Positions 3,793 through 12,076 of a stretch of DNA of 29,450 nucleotides are shown piece after piece (the stretch's first letter is position 1; every line of letters starts with the position of its first letter). The translations under genes and the position numbers were made by a program. This stretch comes from a virus, in the IMG/VR virus record IMGVR_UViG_3300031576_001300, positions 1-29,450 of that record; one strand, given 5' to 3'. Under the pieces are notes generated by a model. It saw nothing but the letters and a program-made list of their open reading frames with translations, made no database searches and was not told the DNA's origin.

Positions 3793-5112
3793 ATGTCAAA
3801 AACGATTAAACAACCGGAAATACAACGTTTCCTCCTTTCCTCTCTGAAGCCCGACCCGGAAAACCCGAGGGAAATTTCCTCCGACGCTTTCTCCGGCCTA
3901 AAAGCAAGCCTCGAGCGCTTCGGATACGTCGATCTTTTGATTGTTAATAAACGAAACATGATGCTTGTTTCCGGTCACCAGCGTTACAAGGCGCTCACCG
4001 AAGCCGGCATTAACGAGGCCGATTGCATCGTCGTAGACCTCGACGACGTCGGCCATAAATCCTTGGCCGTCACGATGAATAACCAGCAGATCGTGGGCGC
4101 GTTTACCGCCGCGATCATTCCGATCTTGGAAAAATTACGCCAGGAAGCACCCGAAGAATATCTCGCCCTAAGGCTGGGTGAACTCCGAAAAGAAGTAGCA
4201 GAGTTTGAAGTCGAAAATAACGGCACGGGCGATACGGGGCCCGACGATATCCCCGAGAACGTGCCGGCCGTCACAAAGCCCGGCGACATTTGGGAGCTCG
4301 GAACTCATCGCCTCATGTGCGGCGATAGTACAAAATCTAGCGATGTCGAAAAACTTTTTAACGGAGAAAAAGGAAAACTCTTTTCGACGGATCCGCCGTA
4401 CCTCGTCGACTACACGGGCAAAGATCGCCCGGGCGGTGGTAAAGATTGGTCGGACAAGTACCACGAAATCGATATAAAAGACATCGAAGGATTTTTCCGG
4501 TCGATTTATGAAGTCGGCTTTCAATTTGTTGAAGAAAATAGCGCGATTTATATGTGGCACGCTGACAAGCGCGTCAGAGTGATCAACGATATTTTAGAGA
4601 GTTTAAACGTTCTTGTTCACCAAACAATAATTTGGGTAAAGCCCGCTCCTTTAATGACCTTTGCACTTTTTCCATGGAGGCATGAACCATGCCTTATGGG
4701 ATGGAAGAAAGCACACAAGCCGAATTTAAATGCGCCCGCCAAATGGAGCGACAAAAACGCTCTGACTAACAGCACTGTTTGGAAAATCGATTTAATGCGC
4801 TCGGGCGACCCGATGGATCCCGCCTATTATTCGGATATCTGGGAAATTGATTTTGACGGTAAGAAAAGAAATAGCGGCAAACTCCACCCAACGGTAAAGC
4901 CTACGGAGATATTTGCGATTCCAATGAGAATTCATACCCAGCCTGGCGATATTTGCTATGAGCCTTTTTCGGGGTCGGGCTCTCAGATTATCGCGGGTGA
5001 GCGTGTCAACCGCCGCGTTTTCGCCATGGAGGTTGAACCTCATTTTTGTGATGTCGCGGTCAGAAGGTGGGAGGACTTTACCGGCAAAAAAGCAAAGCTT
5101 ATCCGAAATTAA
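3793..5112 (+). CDS. ParB-domain / adenine-type DNA methyltransferase fusion
   Basis: A 439-residue two-domain protein. Residues about 8-110 are a ParB/Srx-like domain with ENPR (23-26) and SGHQRYKAL (60-68). Residues about 160-430 are an amino-methyltransferase with DPPY at 200-203 before FSGSG at 392-396, the beta-class order used by N6-adenine or N4-cytosine enzymes. LHPTVKP just before the SAM-binding part is also typical. It would methylate phage or host DNA, most likely to protect the genome from restriction; no endonuclease partner lies beside it. Target sequence unknown. It sits 15 bases before the small terminase, so methylation may be timed with packaging. ATG with GGAAC upstream. 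Confidence 0.92.
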   Translation: MSKTIKQPEIQRFLLSSLKPDPENPREISSDAFSGLKASLERFGYVDLLIVNKRNMMLVSGHQRYKALTEAGINEADCIVVDLDDVGHKSLAVTMNNQQIVGAFTAAIIPILEKLRQEAPEEYLALRLGELRKEVAEFEVENNGTGDTGPDDIPENVPAVTKPGDIWELGTHRLMCGDSTKSSDVEKLFNGEKGKLFSTDPPYLVDYTGKDRPGGGKDWSDKYHEIDIKDIEGFFRSIYEVGFQFVEENSAIYMWHADKRVRVINDILESLNVLVHQTIIWVKPAPLMTFALFPWRHEPCLMGWKKAHKPNLNAPAKWSDKNALTNSTVWKIDLMRSGDPMDPAYYSDIWEIDFDGKKRNSGKLHPTVKPTEIFAIPMRIHTQPGDICYEPFSGSGSQIIAGERVNRRVFAMEVEPHFCDVAVRRWEDFTGKKAKLIRN

Positions 5113-5127
5113 AAAGGCGGAACTTTT

Positions 5128-5760
5128 TTGAATGAACCGGAAAAGAAAAAATTCGATGTCGTTGAAATCGCCAAGAAAAAACGACACGCCTACCTTCTTG
5201 AGAAACTTCAAAAGTCGTCACTCACAAAATCCGAACTTGAAGATTTAAAGCAGCTCGAACATACCGAGCTGCCGGCAGGCGTCGTCGAATCTCAAAAAGA
5301 CGTCGCCAAGACTTTCGGCGTATCCGTTCGAACGATCCGAAACTGGATCAAAAACGGAATGCCGGCACGAAAAGAGGGCGGCTATGACCTTTCAGAAGTT
5401 TACCGCTGGAAGCTTAAAAAAGAAGGTGAGTCAGGTGAGCAAGGAAATCAAAAACATCACTGGGAAATTCATTACCGGCAATACAAAGCGCTTCTTGCCG
5501 AAATCGAATACCGAAAAGCATTGGGGGAGCTCGTCACGCGCGAGGAAGTTGAAGAAGGCCGGGTTCAACGGATCCTCACCGTTAAAAAGGCACTTCTCGG
5601 GTTGCCTGCGCGGTTGGCACCCCAGGTCGTCAATCTCGTCATCAAAAAAGCCGAAGAAATTATCCGTATCAGGATCGAGGAAATCATAAACGATTTTTCA
5701 AGGGGCGGGGATGGGAGCGTCAGTAATGAACGAAACGAAACCAGCGTGGTCGAGCCTTGA
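5128..5760 (+). CDS. terS: Terminase small subunit, Nu1-like
   Basis: A 210-residue protein with a winged helix-turn-helix at about residues 52-79 (ESQKDVAKTFGVSVRTIRNW followed by IKNGMP), the DNA-recognition part of Nu1-type small terminase, then GGYDLSEVYRW. The middle is a long charged helix (KALLAEIEYRKALGELVTRE) and the C-terminus is helical, probably for binding the large subunit. It starts at TTG with AAGGCGG upstream; there is no ATG alternative in this frame. It overlaps the large subunit by 50 bases, as expected for a coupled pair. It would bind cos and load the large subunit. Confidence 0.88.
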   Translation: MNEPEKKKFDVVEIAKKKRHAYLLEKLQKSSLTKSELEDLKQLEHTELPAGVVESQKDVAKTFGVSVRTIRNWIKNGMPARKEGGYDLSEVYRWKLKKEGESGEQGNQKHHWEIHYRQYKALLAEIEYRKALGELVTREEVEEGRVQRILTVKKALLGLPARLAPQVVNLVIKKAEEIIRIRIEEIINDFSRGGDGSVSNERNETSVVEP

Positions 5761-7612
5761 ACGCAACGCTTGGCGTTTGCCTGAGGCCTTCACGGTGTCC
5801 GAATGGGCGGACCATCATCGGGTCTTGGATCCCATGATCTCGGCCGAACCCGGACGGTGGATCACCGATAGAACGCCGTATCTGCGCGGCGTCATGGACG
5901 CTTTCATCGACCCCGAGGTTGAGGAAATAACGCTCATGATGTCGGCACAAGTCGGCAAAACAGAATCGGAGTTAAATTTCATTGGCTACTGCATCGATCA
6001 GGATCCGGGCCCGCTTCTTTATGTCTCGACCCGCGCAGACGACGCCGAGAGCGTCAATGTCAAACGCGTCCAACCGATGATTCGGTTGTCCGACGCTTTA
6101 AAACGGCACATGACAAGCCGTGATGACAATTTCAAAAAAGAAGAAATAACCCTCGACCGCATGATCGTTTATTTTTGCGGGGCAAACTCTCCAGCTGCGC
6201 TTGCCTCAAAACCAATTCGATATCTCGTTATGGACGAGGTCGACAAATACCCAAAATTTTCAGGCCGGGAAGCAGACCCTATTAAGCTTGCGCGTGAGCG
6301 TACAAATACTTTCTGGAACCGAAAAATTATAAAGTCCTCAACGCCGACCACGCGACAAGGCTATATCTCCCGCGAATTCGAAGAAAGCGACGGTCGGCGT
6401 TTTTTCGTCCCTTGTCCTTATTGCGGCGAATACCAAGTCCTGGCCTTCGGGCAAATCAAATTCCCCGCAGAAGAAAGACACCCTCAAAAAATAAGAGACA
6501 AGCGTCTTGCCTGGTATGAATGCGTCTTGTGCAAAGAAAAGATCGATGACGTTCAAAAACACCGGATGCTTCTAAAAGGCGCTTGGCTTCAAAAAAGCCA
6601 ATCGATTAATAAAAACGGAAAAGTTTCAGGTGAGCGTATGGTCACGCGAAAGATCGGTTTTTGGATCAACGCGATCTATTCGCCTTGGAAGACCTTTTCG
6701 GATATCGCGGCTGAATTCTTGGACTGCGAAGGCCGCCCCGAGCTTCTCATGAATTTCGTCAATTCATGGCTTGCCGAAGTCTGGGAAGAAAAAGCACTCG
6801 AAACCTCCGAAAAAAGAATTTTAAATTTAAGAGTTGATTACACGCCGATGTCTATCCCGGCCGCGGCGGTTGTTCTCACAGCCGGTGTCGACGTCCAGAA
6901 AGATCACTTTTACTACACGATCCGGGCCTGGGGCGCTTATGAGGAGTCGTGGCTTATCAGAGCGCTTCGCGTGGAAGATTGGGAAGAGCTTATCACCGAT
7001 ATTTTCTTAACCGAATATTCGGGAGAGGACGGCTACAAAGCTTATGTGCGTCTTGCGTGTATCGACTCGGGCTTCAGAACGGATGAAGTTTACGAGGTAT
7101 GCCGAAAATGGCGCGAGCGCGCCCGCGCGACAAAGGGCGTCGACCGGCTAAACGGTGCGCCGTATCTTGTTTCAAAAATAGACCGTAATCCCCGCACCGG
7201 CCAGGTTATCCCCGAAGGCCTTTCTTTATTCCGCGTCGACACAACTCTTTTTAAAGATAAAATCTCACGCCTGATAAACGCGCAAAGAGAAGACCGTAGC
7301 CAGTGGCACGTTTTTAAAGACGTCTCGGACGCTTATGTGAAACAAATGTGCTCCGAGCATAAAGTGATCGTCCGAAATAAGCGAAAAGGCCAAGTCTGGG
7401 AAGAGTGGCAGCTGAAAGGCTCGGCCACGCCGAATCACTTCTGGGACTGCGAAGTAAACGCGCTTGTCGCATCAGATATGCTTCGCATCCGGTCCTTAAA
7501 GCCCATCGACATCGAAAAAATTAAGGCCGCACAAAAGAAGGAACGCACGTCGTCTCAAGATGAGCCTAGCAACTGGAATCTTGGCAATACGTCCGGGTGG
7601 TTTCAAAGATGA
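5711..7612 (+). CDS. terL: Terminase large subunit, GpA family
   Basis: A 633-residue packaging motor, the normal length for lambda GpA. Walker A is SAQVGKT (78-84), Walker B LVMDE (172-176). A four-Cys zinc site C235-x2-C238 ... C271-x2-C274 is present, as in other GpA proteins. The nuclease part begins with AGVDVQKD (391-398), whose Asp residues would hold metal for cos cutting. ATP hydrolysis drives DNA into the prohead through the portal. Two starts are possible, ATG 5711 and ATG 5726 (MNETKPAW), each with a purine-rich site. It ends in an ATGA overlap with the next gene. Confidence 0.97.
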   Translation: MGASVMNETKPAWSSLERNAWRLPEAFTVSEWADHHRVLDPMISAEPGRWITDRTPYLRGVMDAFIDPEVEEITLMMSAQVGKTESELNFIGYCIDQDPGPLLYVSTRADDAESVNVKRVQPMIRLSDALKRHMTSRDDNFKKEEITLDRMIVYFCGANSPAALASKPIRYLVMDEVDKYPKFSGREADPIKLARERTNTFWNRKIIKSSTPTTRQGYISREFEESDGRRFFVPCPYCGEYQVLAFGQIKFPAEERHPQKIRDKRLAWYECVLCKEKIDDVQKHRMLLKGAWLQKSQSINKNGKVSGERMVTRKIGFWINAIYSPWKTFSDIAAEFLDCEGRPELLMNFVNSWLAEVWEEKALETSEKRILNLRVDYTPMSIPAAAVVLTAGVDVQKDHFYYTIRAWGAYEESWLIRALRVEDWEELITDIFLTEYSGEDGYKAYVRLACIDSGFRTDEVYEVCRKWRERARATKGVDRLNGAPYLVSKIDRNPRTGQVIPEGLSLFRVDTTLFKDKISRLINAQREDRSQWHVFKDVSDAYVKQMCSEHKVIVRNKRKGQVWEEWQLKGSATPNHFWDCEVNALVASDMLRIRSLKPIDIEKIKAAQKKERTSSQDEPSNWNLGNTSGWFQR

Positions 7613-7848
7613 CGGGCTGGCTCGGAGACGATAAGAATTGGTTCCCACCGGCGCAACAAAAAATCCAAAAAAAGTCTGAAGCAGTCAAGAAAGAACCTGA
7701 AAACGAATACGCGGTGTTTTACGTTCCGATTCGGTGCCCGAATAAAAAGTGCGGGTCAAAAGACATAAAGTGTTATACCTCGTCGCCGCCAACGCGATAT
7801 CACATCTGCCGCGAGTGCGGCCTTCGCTTTAAATCCATCGAACAATGA
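7609..7848 (+). CDS. Small zinc-ribbon protein
   Basis: A 79-residue protein whose C-terminal half is a zinc ribbon: C43-x4-C48 and C67-x2-C70 (RCPNKKC ... HICRECG). The N-terminal half is polar and likely unstructured. I chose ATG 7609 because it overlaps the terminase TGA (ATGA); the longer GTG start at 7597 is possible. Zinc ribbons of this kind occur in phage transcription or translation regulators such as the Mu Com group, but overall similarity is not visible. It is first in a run of small genes lying between terminase and gpW. Confidence 0.65.
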   Translation: MTGWLGDDKNWFPPAQQKIQKKSEAVKKEPENEYAVFYVPIRCPNKKCGSKDIKCYTSSPPTRYHICRECGLRFKSIEQ

Positions 7849-7898
7849 GTGCTTTTGCCTTCTTAACAAAGGCGTCCTTTTTAGGCCGAAATGACTTG

Positions 7899-7915
7899 AT
7901 AACTACAACCGTTAT
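7899..7915. promoter_or_regulatory. Imperfect palindrome ATAAC-N7-GTTAT
   Basis: Five-base arms in the non-coding space before the gene at 7968. Its core ACTACAAC is also found in the palindrome at 10005-10021, so both may be sites for one regulator. No clear promoter is seen next to it. Confidence 0.25.
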
Positions 7916-7967
7916 GGCACCCTCCCACCAAGATGAAAAACGAAATAAAAAAGGGAGGAAATTAAAA

Positions 7968-8189
7968 ATGAAAACGGCAAAAAAGGTCACGGAAACGATG
8001 GTCAAAAACGCGTTTAAGCGTTGTCCGCTTTTCGATACCGAGCAAAAAGCGCGAGCTTTCTCGGCGGGTTACGTCGACAAGGTTTGGATCCTTAAAGGAT
8101 CTGGCCGCTATCGCGGATTTTACATTGTCGCGGATTCCAAAAACGCCGCGATTCTAAACGGTCACGGTTTTATGGGAGGCGAAAATTAA
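7968..8189 (+). CDS. Hypothetical protein, 73 residues
   Basis: Start chosen at ATG 7968 because of a strong GGGAGG nine bases upstream; the frame is open back to ATG 7845, which overlaps the previous stop, but those 41 residues look like untranslated leader. The protein is basic at the N-terminus, then has a beta-rich part (DKVWILKGSGRYRGFYIVAD) ending in a Gly-rich tail. I do not recognise it. It is the first of a tightly packed run of four to five small genes. Confidence 0.6.
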   Translation: MKTAKKVTETMVKNAFKRCPLFDTEQKARAFSAGYVDKVWILKGSGRYRGFYIVADSKNAAILNGHGFMGGEN

Positions 8190-8447
8190 ATGACTGCACA
8201 AGGCATGATCAACGAAAAAATGAAATCAAGCCGTGAAATGACAAGAAAACTCAACGAAGCCCGTGCTTCGATTCAAAGGTCGTCTGATTATCTGGACAAG
8301 GAGTGGATCAAAAACGCGGAAGGAATCACGGCACTTAAACCGATCTCGACTTGGGCGGACGTGGGCGATATGGGAAGGGTTCTCGAGCTTTTAAAAGACC
8401 TCGAAAATGTCCTTTCTGATCGAGCAAAACAAAGAGGTGAAAAATGA
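8190..8447 (+). CDS. Hypothetical helical protein, 85 residues
   Basis: Begins directly after the preceding stop codon, with GGGAGG ten bases before the ATG. It is mostly helical and charged (INEKMKSSREMTRKLNEAR; VLELLKDLENVLSDRAKQR), suggesting a coiled-coil or protein-binding role. Its TGA overlaps the start of the SpoVG-like gene (ATGA), so the two are translationally coupled and possibly act together. Family not recognised. Confidence 0.65.
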   Translation: MTAQGMINEKMKSSREMTRKLNEARASIQRSSDYLDKEWIKNAEGITALKPISTWADVGDMGRVLELLKDLENVLSDRAKQRGEK

Positions 8448-8704
8448 CGAACATCGAAGTGGTTGATATTCGGAAAATTATAGGCGACGGAAACTTGAAG
8501 GCTTTCGCGGACGTGAAATTCTCAGACACGATCATCGTGAAGGGCTTCAACGTCCTGATGGGAAAACACGGTGTTTTCGTCGCGATGCCGCGCAAGGCGT
8601 CTAAGGATGGCCGGTGGCTCGATGTCCTGACGCCAGTGAATGACAAAGTTAAAACCCAGATCGAGACAAAAATTCTCGAGGCCTATGAAAAAGAGGGGGC
8701 ATAA
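8444..8704 (+). CDS. spoVG: SpoVG-family nucleic-acid-binding protein
   Basis: An 86-residue match over its whole length to SpoVG: VVDIRKIIGDGNLKAFADV, then IIVKGFNVL, the hallmark GVFVAMPRK, DGRWLDVLTPVN and a C-terminal helix ending in LEAYE. Cellular SpoVG is a small site-specific DNA- and RNA-binding dimer that changes expression of many genes in Bacillus, Staphylococcus and Borrelia. The phage copy, without the usual chromosomal neighbours, probably regulates transcription or translation. The start has AGAGGTG five bases upstream and overlaps the previous stop. It is the most recognisable gene of the terminase-gpW insertion. Confidence 0.9.
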   Translation: MTNIEVVDIRKIIGDGNLKAFADVKFSDTIIVKGFNVLMGKHGVFVAMPRKASKDGRWLDVLTPVNDKVKTQIETKILEAYEKEGA

Positions 8705-8707
8705 ATC

Positions 8708-8854
8708 ATGGAACTCAAATGGCGCGTGGTTTGTGTGGTTGCAATTGGGCAGACGTGCGAAAGAGATATCGATGACTTGGCAGACCTGACAAAAGTCATT
8801 GATACGCTTCCGGCTTTACCGATATCCGTTCATATTTTTGCAATCGGCGTATAG
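8708..8854 (+). CDS. Hypothetical protein, 48 residues
   Basis: A short frame with GAGGGG nine bases before the ATG, lying three bases after the SpoVG-like stop and ending directly before the next ATG. The protein has a beta-type hydrophobic start (WRVVCVVAIG), an acidic helix (DIDDLADLTKVIDTL) and a hydrophobic end. Tight spacing and a good ribosome site support it. No family recognised. Confidence 0.55.
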   Translation: MELKWRVVCVVAIGQTCERDIDDLADLTKVIDTLPALPISVHIFAIGV

Positions 8855-9223
8855 ATGAAATACGTTCACCCGGATCACAACGTTGTGATAAACGCCCAGG
8901 GCGGTTATGCGGTCCTCGAGCGTTTAGGATTTAAACCTGAAAACCAAAAGGAGGATGAAATGGCAAAGAAGAAAAAAGCCGCATTGAAAAAGGCGGAGAA
9001 ACCGGCCTCGAAGACCGCGGCGGCGAAAACCGAAAAGGCCGAAGTCTCGGGACAGAGCCGAAACGAGCTCATGCTCGAAGTAAAGTCGCGCGGGATCAAA
9101 AACTTTCGCGTGATGAATAAGGCCGAGCTTGTAGAGATCGTCGCCGGTGTGACACCCGAACGCCTCAAGGAAATCGAGGAAGAGGCGGTCGCTCGCTGGA
9201 AGTCCGGCTGGTCGAAGAAATAA
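8855..9223 (+). CDS. Lys/Ala-rich protein with Rho-N/SAP-like C-terminal motif
   Basis: A 122-residue protein in three parts: an N-terminal segment (MKYVHPDHNVVINAQGGYAV), a Lys/Ala-rich low-complexity linker (about 36-65), and a helical motif RNELMLEVKSRGIKNFRVMN followed by KAELVEIV, resembling the Rho N-terminal or SAP helix-extended-helix motif that binds nucleic acid. The first ATG follows the preceding stop without a good ribosome site. An internal ATG at 8960 has AAGGAGG five bases upstream, so an 87-residue form beginning MAKKKK is likely made as well or instead. A DNA- or RNA-binding role is inferred from the motif and basic linker. Confidence 0.6.
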   Translation: MKYVHPDHNVVINAQGGYAVLERLGFKPENQKEDEMAKKKKAALKKAEKPASKTAAAKTEKAEVSGQSRNELMLEVKSRGIKNFRVMNKAELVEIVAGVTPERLKEIEEEAVARWKSGWSKK

Positions 9224-9300
9224 GCGGAGTGGCCGGGGTCGAAAAAGGGCCCCGGTTAACGCACAGGCTCGGTCACAAGTCCGGGCGAAAAGGGGGAAGT

Positions 9301-9471
9301 ATGAAACTCGGTCTTTTGGAAGAAATGCCCGCCATACGCGTGGCGCTGGGCTTGAATCAAGCGCTCCGCGACAAGCTTGCGGCCGCAAAGAGGAATTTAA
9401 GAAGGCTTAAGCGATGCGAGGCTACTCGAGAAGCTCGGCTGGTTTCACGCGCAGGACCTTGGCAATCTTAA
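9301..9471 (+). CDS. Small basic protein overlapping the XRE gene tail to tail
   Basis: A 56-residue frame with AGGGGG before ATG 9301; the frame stays open upstream to GTG 9229. The N-terminal half is helical (LGLLEEMPAIRVALGLNQAL), the rest basic. From 9422 on it overlaps the convergent XRE gene, and this last part looks unlike a normal protein end. Insertion of the XRE unit may have cut off an older 3' end. Function unknown. Confidence 0.4.
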   Translation: MKLGLLEEMPAIRVALGLNQALRDKLAAAKRNLRRLKRCEATREARLVSRAGPWQS

Positions 9472-9646
9472 AAAGGGTCGCAAGCGACGGCGTGTCTTTC
9501 TGCAAGGGAAGCTCAAGGCGTTGGTAAAAGTTAAGCGAAAGGTCGGCAAGTTCGGCAACCTTTTCTTGGGTGAGCTCGGCTTTTATTCGGTACTTGCGTA
9601 TGTTCTTAGCGACGATGCGCTTAATAATCTGGTCGTCTTTAGTCAT
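9422..9646 (-). CDS. XRE-family regulator of an accessory unit
   Basis: A single-domain HTH protein of 74 residues: LTQEKVAELADLSLNFYQRL is the recognition unit, then SLATLFKIAKVLRVKPAELL. The frame is open to ATG 9682, but I prefer ATG 9646 (MTKDDQII): the longer N-terminus is not HTH-like and overlaps a pair of direct repeats that look like operators. It is the only - strand gene between 1.6 and 28.9 kb and points away from the gene at 9731. This is the layout of a lysogenically expressed extra unit placed inside a late operon. Confidence 0.75.
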   Translation of the reverse strand: MTKDDQIIKRIVAKNIRKYRIKAELTQEKVAELADLSLNFYQRLELPLQKDTPSLATLFKIAKVLRVKPAELLE

Positions 9647-9659
9647 GATGCTATTAGAG

Positions 9660-9688
9660 CAAACATACGCTAAAACAAACATTTGCTA
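9660..9688. promoter_or_regulatory. Direct-repeat operator candidate of the XRE unit
   Basis: CAAACAT-two bases-GCTA occurs at 9660-9672 and 9676-9688, eleven of thirteen bases identical with a 16-base period, in the gap between the divergent genes. The outer ends also form AGCAAA/TTTGCT. A tandem HTH-protein site is the simplest reading. No consensus promoter is clear. Confidence 0.45.
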
Positions 9689-9730
9689 TAAAGTCATTAT
9701 CTTTCACGTATACTTATAGGGGAGGCCTGT

Positions 9731-10000
9731 ATGGATTACCAAATAACGGCGTATTTAAAGAACGGCCAGTCGCGTCAAACGTCCTATGAAAAGCTTCTGG
9801 ATTCGCTCGGGATCCGGGAGGAGTATTTTCTGGCTGAACCTCTAACGATGGGAACGCAAAGCCAAGCCTGCTATGTGGCCATTCTTTTAAAGAGTCAAAT
9901 CAAGGACATTGCGAAGGTGATTATTCACGATGCGAACGGTAATCAGGTAGGCGCTTTTGGGCTCTTAAGCGACCTTTTGGACGAAAAAGACCCAAAATAA
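9731..10000 (+). CDS. Hypothetical protein of the XRE unit, 89 residues
   Basis: A good start with GGGGAGG five bases before ATG. It has an N-terminal beta hairpin (MDYQITAYLKNGQSRQTSY), a helix, and a beta-rich middle (ACYVAILLKSQIKDIAKVII) followed by a DANGNQVG turn and an acidic end. No family recognised. It diverges from the XRE gene, shares its control region, and is followed by a strong terminator at 10060-10088, so it seems to be an independent two-gene unit. Confidence 0.6.
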   Translation: MDYQITAYLKNGQSRQTSYEKLLDSLGIREEYFLAEPLTMGTQSQACYVAILLKSQIKDIAKVIIHDANGNQVGAFGLLSDLLDEKDPK

Positions 10001-10004
10001 GTCG

Positions 10005-10021
10005 TTACTACAACGTAGTAA
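10005..10021. promoter_or_regulatory. Palindrome TTACTAC-AAC-GTAGTAA
   Basis: A perfect 7-bp inverted repeat with a three-base centre, four bases after the stop of the previous gene. At 17 bp it has the size of an HTH-protein operator. It shares ACTACAAC with the site at 7899-7915. It could also be the foot of a small RNA hairpin. Confidence 0.4.
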
Positions 10022-10059
10022 AGACCCCCTTTTAAAAAATCAAAACGCCGTTAAGATAG

Positions 10060-10088
10060 AGCTTGGGTAACCCCCAAGCTGTTTTTTT
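10060..10088 (+). terminator. Rho-independent terminator
   Basis: AGCTTGGG (10060-10067), five-base loop, CCCAAGCT (10073-10080), G, then seven T. The stem is perfect. It would end the transcript of the gene at 9731 and any read-through from the terminase genes, so the head genes need antitermination or their own promoter. Confidence 0.88.
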
Positions 10089-10091
10089 AAA

Positions 10092-10219
10092 TCGTCGGCC
10101 TCATGAACCGGCGATCCTGACAACTGAATAAATAGTCCTTTCGCGAAGGGCAAGAGAAACACGAGACCTAAGAAGGCTCGTGTTCTCTTGCCTTTTTTAT
10201 TTGGTTGTCAGGAAACCAA
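10092..10219 (+). ncRNA. Candidate structured RNA or leader element before gpW
   Basis: Non-coding, and it folds on paper into several abutting stems: a 7-bp hairpin (10092-10098 with 10108-10114); immediately beside it an 18-bp outer stem (10115-10132 with 10196-10213) with two adjacent G-U pairs; inside that a 4-bp hairpin (10137-10140 with 10146-10149) and a long terminator-like hairpin (10149-10192). The three G-U pairs would be A-C mismatches in the opposite strand, so the RNA is + strand. An alternative 6-bp hairpin (10201-10206 with 10214-10219) excludes the outer stem and touches the gpW ribosome site. No known RNA class recognised. Confidence 0.5.
10149..10198 (+). terminator. Strong terminator-like hairpin with T6
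   Basis: A 16-bp stem with one bulged A: GGCAAGAG onward from 10149 to 10165, eleven-base loop, 10177-10192, then six T (10193-10198). It lies 34 bases before the gpW start. Three of its T residues also take part in the larger outer stem described for the structured RNA, so termination and that stem compete. Confidence 0.75.
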
Positions 10220-10232
10220 GGAGAGCCAGGCC

Positions 10233-10451
10233 GTGGCGGTAACAGTCCAAACGATGCTCGACAACGTGGAAGCGGCGATCAACGCGCGTCTAACCGGCGG
10301 CGCGGTTCAGTCGTACACGATTGGAGGTCGGAATATTCAGTATTGCTCTCTAAAAGAGCTTTACGACATCCGCACCTTGCTACGACGCGAGCTGAATTCC
10401 TCCACGCCTGGCTCGTCCACCAATTACGCGAAGTTTGAAAAACCGACATGA
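10233..10451 (+). CDS. Head-tail joining protein, gpW family
   Basis: A 72-residue protein with the gpW pattern: a helix (MLDNVEAAINARLTGGAVQS), a beta hairpin (YTIGGRNIQYCS) and a second helix (LKELYDIRTLLRREL). Lambda gpW closes the portal channel after packaging and makes the site for the next joining protein. I chose GTG 10233, with AAGGAG nine bases upstream; the frame is open to 10188, but that would include the terminator hairpin. It lies directly before the portal gene, as in lambda, with an ATGA overlap. Confidence 0.85.
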   Translation: MAVTVQTMLDNVEAAINARLTGGAVQSYTIGGRNIQYCSLKELYDIRTLLRRELNSSTPGSSTNYAKFEKPT

Positions 10452-12076
10452 CCAAAGAAAAAGAAAAAATCTCAATCCGTGAGCGCGTGGGAATTGGCCT
10501 CGACAAGATGATCGGCCTTTTCGCGCCAAAGGCCGCGTATCGCCGGATGGTGTATCGCCGCGCGGGAGAGATCATGGCGGCTGGCTTTTACAAAGGGGCG
10601 GGGTATGACCGTCTGAAAGGCTCTTGGGTTCCCGGCCGTGGATCAGCGGATCAGAACCTTTTGCTAGACCTTCCGATTCTTCGGGAACGAAGCCGCGACT
10701 TAAACGCAAACGACCCTCGCGCCTCAGGTATTACAAAAACGCTCGTCAATAACACGGTCGGCACCGGCATTCGTCTTCAGTCACGAATCAGCGCGGAAGA
10801 TCTAGGTATTACGGATGAGGCGGCCCATAAGCTTCAAGACGAGTGCGAAAAAGTTTGGGAGAAGTGGTGCGGTTGGGCCGATGCGTCAAACCGCATGGAT
10901 TTTTATGAAATCCAGCGCCTCATTGACCGCCAGATCTTGGAATGCGGCGAAGCGCTCTTTATTCCGGTCATGCTCACGGATGCGAGCCGCCCGTATTCTT
11001 TGGCACTCGACATTATTGAGCCCGACCGCTTGCGGACGCCTTTTGCGTTTGTCGGGGACCGGAATGTCCGAGCGGGTGTGAAGGTCGGGGAGCGCGGCGA
11101 GCCGCTTTCTTATTTCATTTCGAAAAAGCATCCCGGGGATTTTCTTTATGGTGGTGGCTCCTACGATTTTGCGTATACGGAGATTCCAGCATTTAACGCT
11201 CAAGGCCGAAAAAACCTTATCCATATCTACGAAGTTGAGCGGCCAGGCCAAACACGCGGCATTCCTTTTTTCGCGCCGGTCCTTGATTACTTTAAGCACT
11301 TAGTCGATTACGAAGAGGCCGAGCTCGTCGCCGCGCGTATTTCGGCCTGTTACGCTCTCATCATCGAAACCGAGAATTCGGCAAGTGCATCAATCGCTGC
11401 ATCTGACGAAACCAACTTAAATAACCAACGCTTGGAAAAGCTTGAACCGGGCATGATTAAACGAACTCAGCCCGGTGAAGAGGTTAAATCCTTTAACCCC
11501 GCGCGGCCTTCTGGAAATTTTGACCCCTTTGTTTTTTCGATTCTTCGCGCGATCTGCGCCGGCCTTAACCTTCCTTACGAGATTGTTTCAAAGGATTTCT
11601 CGAAAACGAATTATTCAAGCGCACGTGCCGCACTTTTACAAGCCTATCGGTATTTCAAACAGCGGCAAGTATCGCTTTCGAATAAGCTTTGCCAGCCGGT
11701 TTACGAAATGCTCCTTGAGGAAGCGTATCTTCGTGGCGAGCTTGCGGTACCGGATTACTACGCGCGGCGCTACGACTACAACAAAGCGCGGTGGATAACA
11801 CCTGGCTGGCAATGGGTGGATCCCTTGAAAGAAGCCCAAGCCGCCGAGCTTTCGATCAATAACGGCATTTCAACCCTAGCCGATGAATGCGCCTCACGTG
11901 GGGACGATTGGGAAGAAAAGATCGAGCAAAGAGCGCGTGAAGCCCGAAAGATTCAAGACCTCGAAAAGAAATACGGTGTCAGGATCGTCGGCCAGGACGC
12001 GAAAACGTCATCGAAAAATTCCAACAACTCCGACCCAAACGACCCGAATAACCCTAACCAAGAAGGCGGCGACTAA
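10448..12076 (+). CDS. Portal protein, lambda gpB family
   Basis: A 542-residue protein of the lambda-type portal family. Typical segments are RERSRDLNANDPRASGITKT, then NNTVGTGI near the N-terminus, DIIEPDRL, and GLNLPYEIVSKDFSKTNYSS, the best-conserved family stretch, followed by SARAALLQAYRYF. It forms the dodecameric ring at one vertex through which DNA enters. The C-terminal 35 residues are polar and rich in Asn, Asp and Pro, probably disordered. In lambda the portal is trimmed by the C protease, whose homologue is the next gene, one base after this stop. Confidence 0.95.
   Translation: MTKEKEKISIRERVGIGLDKMIGLFAPKAAYRRMVYRRAGEIMAAGFYKGAGYDRLKGSWVPGRGSADQNLLLDLPILRERSRDLNANDPRASGITKTLVNNTVGTGIRLQSRISAEDLGITDEAAHKLQDECEKVWEKWCGWADASNRMDFYEIQRLIDRQILECGEALFIPVMLTDASRPYSLALDIIEPDRLRTPFAFVGDRNVRAGVKVGERGEPLSYFISKKHPGDFLYGGGSYDFAYTEIPAFNAQGRKNLIHIYEVERPGQTRGIPFFAPVLDYFKHLVDYEEAELVAARISACYALIIETENSASASIAASDETNLNNQRLEKLEPGMIKRTQPGEEVKSFNPARPSGNFDPFVFSILRAICAGLNLPYEIVSKDFSKTNYSSARAALLQAYRYFKQRQVSLSNKLCQPVYEMLLEEAYLRGELAVPDYYARRYDYNKARWITPGWQWVDPLKEAQAAELSINNGISTLADECASRGDDWEEKIEQRAREARKIQDLEKKYGVRIVGQDAKTSSKNSNNSDPNDPNNPNQEGGD

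Follow-up and report, generated by a model that had tools for sequence, protein, structure and literature searches.

The window analysed here, that is the whole stretch of DNA under study, is a complete viral record of 29,450 bases, in which the genes around the boundary between packaging and head functions are arranged as follows:

5128-5760: small terminase subunit (PHROG 57)
5711-7612: gpA-type large terminase (PF05876/PF20454)
7597-10000: small accessory genes, ~2.4 kb, including one for a SpoVG-like protein (PF04026)
10001-10232: gap of 232 nt before the head genes
10233 (GTG start): gpW-like head-tail joining gene (PHROG 5774/118)
10448-12076: lambda-type portal (PF05136), with more head genes beyond

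The 232-base gap that the first-pass annotation had placed between the packaging and the head genes is indeed found, extending from the stop codon at 9998-10000 to the GTG at 10233. Here the large terminase is separated from the head genes by an accessory block of ~2.4 kb, whereas most of the lambda-type phages compared have almost no gap at this point. Also, a ParB-like domain fused to a DNA methyltransferase is encoded upstream of the terminase (3793-5112).

Structure of the RNA element

The gap contains a conserved RNA element, and the features identified there are listed below. Conservation refers to six copies, which are those of the window, of four related phage contigs (L002 to L005) and of a further record, L021.

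10030-10057, + strand: weak promoter candidate TTTTAA-16-TAAGAT (TTTAAA-16-TATCAT in the relatives)
10060-10088, + strand: T1, terminator-like hairpin with T7 upstream of the element (terminator scan and alignment)
10091-10217, + strand: whole conserved RNA element, matched by covariance models R1/R2 in six phage records
10091-10115, + strand: P0, 8-bp hairpin (10091-10098 with 10108-10115) with the 9-nt loop CCUCAUGAA at 10099-10107
10116-10132, + strand: P1 5' strand, CCUGACAACUGAAUAAA, abutting P0 and pairing with 10196-10212
10137-10150, + strand: P2, inner hairpin CCUUU-CGCG-AAGGG, with three pairs changed on both sides
10149-10192, + strand: P3, terminator-like hairpin of about -29 kcal/mol, with a bulge lying ~9-10 nt away from the foot
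10193-10198, + strand: U-tract of P3 (U6), found in every copy (U5 in that of L004)
10196-10212, + strand: P1 3' strand, UUUAUUUGGUUGUCAGG, in which UGUCAGG is invariant in all six copies
10213-10223, + strand: invariant AAAC tail, then AAGGAG, the ribosome site for the gpW-like gene (sequence and alignment)

The folding energy computed for positions 10091-10219 is -64.4 kcal/mol against a mean of -30.3 kcal/mol for shuffled sequences (z -9.65; 0 of 200 shuffles), and the opposite strand of the same interval yields a weaker fold (-55.3 kcal/mol). The parts that had been described beforehand are present, namely the 7-bp hairpin (10092-10098 with 10108-10114), which amounts to 8 bp when A10091-U10115 is counted, the outer stem (10115-10132 with 10196-10213) together with the G-U pairs named for it, the small inner hairpin at 10137-10150, and the terminator hairpin, which is strong, spans 10149-10192 and is followed by U6. 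The three-way junction that these parts were thought to form is however missing from the minimum-energy fold, in which P3 reaches into the U-tract and leaves a bulge of ~11-13 nt instead.

Within the element, P2 and P3 are both nested inside P1 and have a GG in common. The P0 loop is identical in the six copies, and so are the portion CCUGACAA of the P1 5' strand, the helix foot CCUGAC/GUCAGG of P1 and the AAAC tail. The GC-rich stem of P3, on the other hand, is retained despite divergence of its sequence, and a run of U5-U6 follows it in every copy. In P0, three pairs are changed on both sides in L021 while the U10095-G10111 pair is conserved; the retention of this U-G pair in both phage lineages fits selection at the RNA level. 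The earlier view of a structured RNA on the + strand is supported.

The tetraloop of P2 (10142-10145 in the window) reads CGCG, UCGA, UCGA, GCGC, GCGC and CGCG in the six copies and is thus self-complementary in all of them, an intriguing observation made post hoc. In four copies P2 constitutes a perfect 14-bp palindrome at the DNA level.

Copies in related and unrelated phages

Two of the relatives were obtained through a portal query and two more through a pattern of the conserved core, and the element occupies the same genome place in all four of these contigs. The five related phages are well diverged, with 59-93% pairwise nucleotide identity across the next 1.8 kb, where half of the columns are invariant; the longest run identical among them measures 33 nt within the element (TCGTCGGCCTCATGAACCGGCGATCCTGACAAC) versus 14 nt in those next 1.8 kb. 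A pattern that fixes only the loop and CCTGAC matched 21 stretches and gave one new full copy, at positions 2415-2521 of L021. This copy comprises an 8-bp P0 made of different pairs but with the same U-G pair, as well as P1, P2 and P3 with U6, and it ends in GTCAGGAAAC followed by AAGGAG and ATG. Covariance model R1, built from the five relatives without L021, assigned it 65 bits with an E-value of 1.2e-12 in 431 kb, a value that is rough owing to the short calibration of the model and that refers to a search set which was not blind, since L021 had been obtained by pattern.

The L021 phage is unrelated to the window phage. Its terminase belongs to PHROG 38 and has its nearest known phages at ~26% identity, the 685-residue protein at its portal position has no family match, its major head protein, further downstream, falls in PHROG 9953 (2.7e-39), and no convincing protein in common with the window phage was found. 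As the element lies once again between terminase and head genes, one RNA occupies the same boundary in two unrelated phages, in both directly before the first head-module gene and on the same strand as the genes. The motif CCTCATGAACC occurs exactly once in each of the six records, and every genome has a single copy of the element, always joined to a head-gene ribosome site. The six copies represent only two independent lineages.

The stems also change in pairs among the relatives, which is what the first-pass annotation had proposed to look for. In an alignment fitted to the model, and therefore biased towards the structure, 96% of the cells of the six copies pair and 12 of the 35 pairs change on both sides; shuffled alignments average 3.9 such changes, with 0 of 500 reaching 12, and only 0-3 are obtained when the structure is shifted by 1-3 columns. 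When the five relatives are aligned by MAFFT and a structure is drawn on the window copy, five two-sided pairs result, with a covariation score that no shuffle matched. It is near certain that this is a real RNA family, supported by covariation.

The family lies outside those of Rfam, in agreement with the earlier statement that no matching class was known. Over the element, the covariance models of Rfam 15 (4227 families, gathering thresholds) returned no match, and raising the limit to E-values of up to 10 added only weak matches at chance level. The models for ribozymes (twister, hammerhead, HDV-like, pistol, hatchet and others) matched the window only at a twister in 9224-9284, and those for packaging RNAs of the phi29 type gave nothing among the 4227 families. 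A BLAST search with the element in known phages and plasmids gave chance matches or none; no model match was obtained in twelve known phages whose portals are of lambda type or whose terminases resemble that of L021, several of these phages having no gap at that place; and model R2 found no match in 45 other loci. Pattern scans of the IMG/VR and GTDB genomes recovered the six copies and otherwise chance matches only, a search of one guessed host phylum gave two chance matches, and nothing of this kind turned up in the literature searches. Two further candidates were set aside: a micro-ORF (AUG AAC ... UCC UGA) across P0, whose frame is retained in both lineages, was judged unlikely, being devoid of a ribosome site and having its AUG in the hairpin loop, and pairing of the P0 loop with the Shine-Dalgarno sequence amounts to only 3-4 bp.

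Other features accompany the element. The promoter candidate upstream of it attains a 9/12 match in L005 only; that of the window stays under the threshold of the promoter scan, and in L021 none above threshold precedes the element. The T1 hairpin is present in the clade of the window and not in L021. A second conserved structure of the gap, at 10005-10034 in the window, consists of a hairpin (TTACTAC/GTAGTAA) with compensatory changes in the arms in relatives, followed by the near-invariant GACCCCCTTT and an A-rich stretch; this structure is absent from L021. The twister ribozyme mentioned above is of type P5 (RF02684), lies on the + strand and is found upstream of the element in all five related phages (L002 1797-1856, L003 4348-4408, L004 2772-2710, L005 5609-5669), adjoining the gap in L004 and with accessory genes in between elsewhere; the L021 record has none. 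In addition, a group I intron (RF00028, 70 bits) is located at 5140-5390 of L051, which belongs to the same phage record as L005.

Exclusive folds and possible functions

In all six copies the 3' arm of P2 has two possible partners, its own 5' arm and the strand that follows P3, the P3 foot. Both pairings are complete in the five related phages, and L021 has one mismatch in P2; in L004 all three segments have changed in concert, to CCCAU, AUGGG and CCCAU. Since P3 requires the GG-containing P2 3' arm for its foot, P2 and the complete terminator are mutually exclusive, and this pair of alternatives is conserved. The earlier idea of two exclusive folds is therefore upheld in its general form, although with other partners: the 6-bp hairpin (10201-10206 with 10214-10219) near the gpW ribosome site, which had been put forward as the second state, is present in the window but reduced to 4 bp or fewer in the relatives and absent from L021. 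Folding of successively longer prefixes yields the order P0, P2, P3 displacing P2, and then P1 once the polymerase has cleared the U-tract, with P2 being seen only in the shorter, co-transcriptional prefixes.

Among the roles suggested at first, action as a riboregulator or in antitermination has the best support, while nothing found speaks positively for a packaging RNA. More specifically, we tentatively read the element as a 5'-leader attenuator with an antitermination module which would gate transcription into the head operon. Two features expected of a leader attenuator are found here, with a stable hairpin and U5-U6 before the first gene and an alternative hairpin that excludes the complete terminator. 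This reading draws on the terminator signature being kept despite changes in the stem, on the earlier competing hairpin and on the place before the first head gene. According to the computed prefixes, P0 would form first and then P2 while the leader is being transcribed; P3 would then take the GG-containing P2 3' arm, as the comparison of copies also suggests, completing its foot beside the U-tract. Should P2 yield in this way, the polymerase may stop at the U-tract, leaving a short RNA and the head genes off. Alternatively, the P0 module with its CCUCAUGAA loop might engage a partner or the polymerase and suppress termination, upon which P1 would close in the wake of the polymerase, leaving the first head gene with an accessible ribosome site. 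The invariant P0 loop and the P0/P1 junction are likely to constitute the putative specific-recognition part. As there is no detectable gene common to both phage lineages, the partner probably comes from the host, with RNA polymerase or a Nus-like factor as candidates. A phage protein is less likely than a host factor, the polymerase itself or action of the RNA alone.

The P1 3' strand is invariant beyond the terminator, so that selection acts on the read-through transcript as well. This goes beyond what simple attenuation requires and keeps processing and translation in play. The element could act in mRNA processing, stability or translation, the P1+P3 helix of more than 30 bp being cut by RNase III or another factor or else shielding the 5' end of the head message and, along with the upstream twister, separating the terminase and head messages and setting their dosage. 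The great stability of the long helix, the absence of variation in the P1 3' strand and AAAC tail just ahead of the ribosome site and the twister found upstream in the five related phages speak for this; nevertheless, RNase III sites require neither an invariant 9-nt loop nor an invariant helix sequence, no role would be left for the U-tract and the P2/P3 exclusion, and the twister is missing from the L021 record, so that we regard this alternative as unlikely. The twister in five phages, in combination with a compact conserved core and variable inner stems, might also hint at a new class of self-cleaving ribozyme, near a twister like other such phage RNAs. This is improbable, considering that the conserved bases are found mainly in helices and in one hairpin loop, that no Rfam ribozyme model matched the element even at a lenient threshold, and that, here too, L021 offers no twister.

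The own terminator, the conserved loop and the candidate promoter in L005 would likewise suit a small RNA gene of ~110-135 nt, running from a promoter in the gap to P3, whose P0 loop and free CCUGACAA strand would act in trans. We consider it quite unlikely, as the conserved P1 3' strand lies past the terminator and hence outside such an RNA, and the single copy per genome is always joined to a head-gene ribosome site. Self-pairing offers another possibility, a dimer-forming RNA that might take part in packaging or in the assembly of heads. The 6-nt palindrome UCAUGA is set in a 2+6+1 layout within the P0 loop, the computed loop-loop duplex reaches -7 kcal/mol, each copy has a self-complementary P2 tetraloop, and the location between terminase and head genes would be apt. 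This proposal is however post hoc, the P0 loop never swaps to another palindrome, perfect palindromes can be created by template switching, and there is no match to a known packaging RNA model, which makes it as improbable as a ribozyme or slightly more so. Finally, inverted repeats and palindromes are visible in the DNA as well, as would be the case for a pac/cos, recombination or operator site merely resembling an RNA. The conserved U-G pair, the exchanges among G-U, G-C and A-U pairs, the constant orientation relative to the genes, the weaker fold of the other strand and stems that covary rather than keep a repeat sequence render such a site highly improbable.

Significance and comparison with known systems

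The element is a covariation-supported RNA family outside Rfam, located at the packaging/head boundary, a place of evident biological meaning, in phages without a detectable common gene. If the head genes are gated by a host factor, the timing of head production would be set without a dedicated regulator protein and the element would serve as a transcription switch both compact and portable. Direct mutational predictions follow from the invariance of the 9-nt loop and from the exclusion between P2 and P3.

The nearest functional analogue is the put RNA of phage HK022, which binds the beta' zinc-binding domain of RNA polymerase and suppresses termination. This antitermination RNA is found in early operons, downstream of PL or PR, and consists of two stem-loops of ~70 nt (PMC9378689). 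Compared by description, both are phage stem-loops in cis with which the polymerase could pass terminators without a phage protein, and P0 precedes a terminator here. However, the present element lies between the terminase/accessory and the head genes rather than in an early operon, encloses a terminator within its outer stem and leads immediately into a ribosome site. That it represents a putative new class of phage RNA acting on the host transcription machinery without a phage protein, put-like in action and unrelated in structure, is a rather doubtful proposal, and the same holds for a portable switch gating the head operon from the same genome position in unrelated tailed phages.

In the late control of lambda-type phages (PR', 6S RNA, tR' and the Q protein), a short leader ending in a terminator precedes the late genes, and Q acts through a DNA site and as a protein. 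The logic of leader, terminator and late genes is alike, whereas the element described here is a conserved RNA structure for which no shared protein was found. Similarly to the phi29 packaging RNA, it is a small phage RNA near packaging functions in which self-pairing loops are possible; yet it has no Rfam match, another genome position and an end at a head-gene ribosome site. With leader attenuators and terminator riboswitches it has in common the exclusive hairpins, one being an intrinsic terminator, and differs from them in that its terminator is enclosed by an outer stem whose closure has to await read-through, and from riboswitches also in matching no known aptamer class in Rfam. We provisionally class the element as a new RNA family within a broad type already known, the phage leader regulators.
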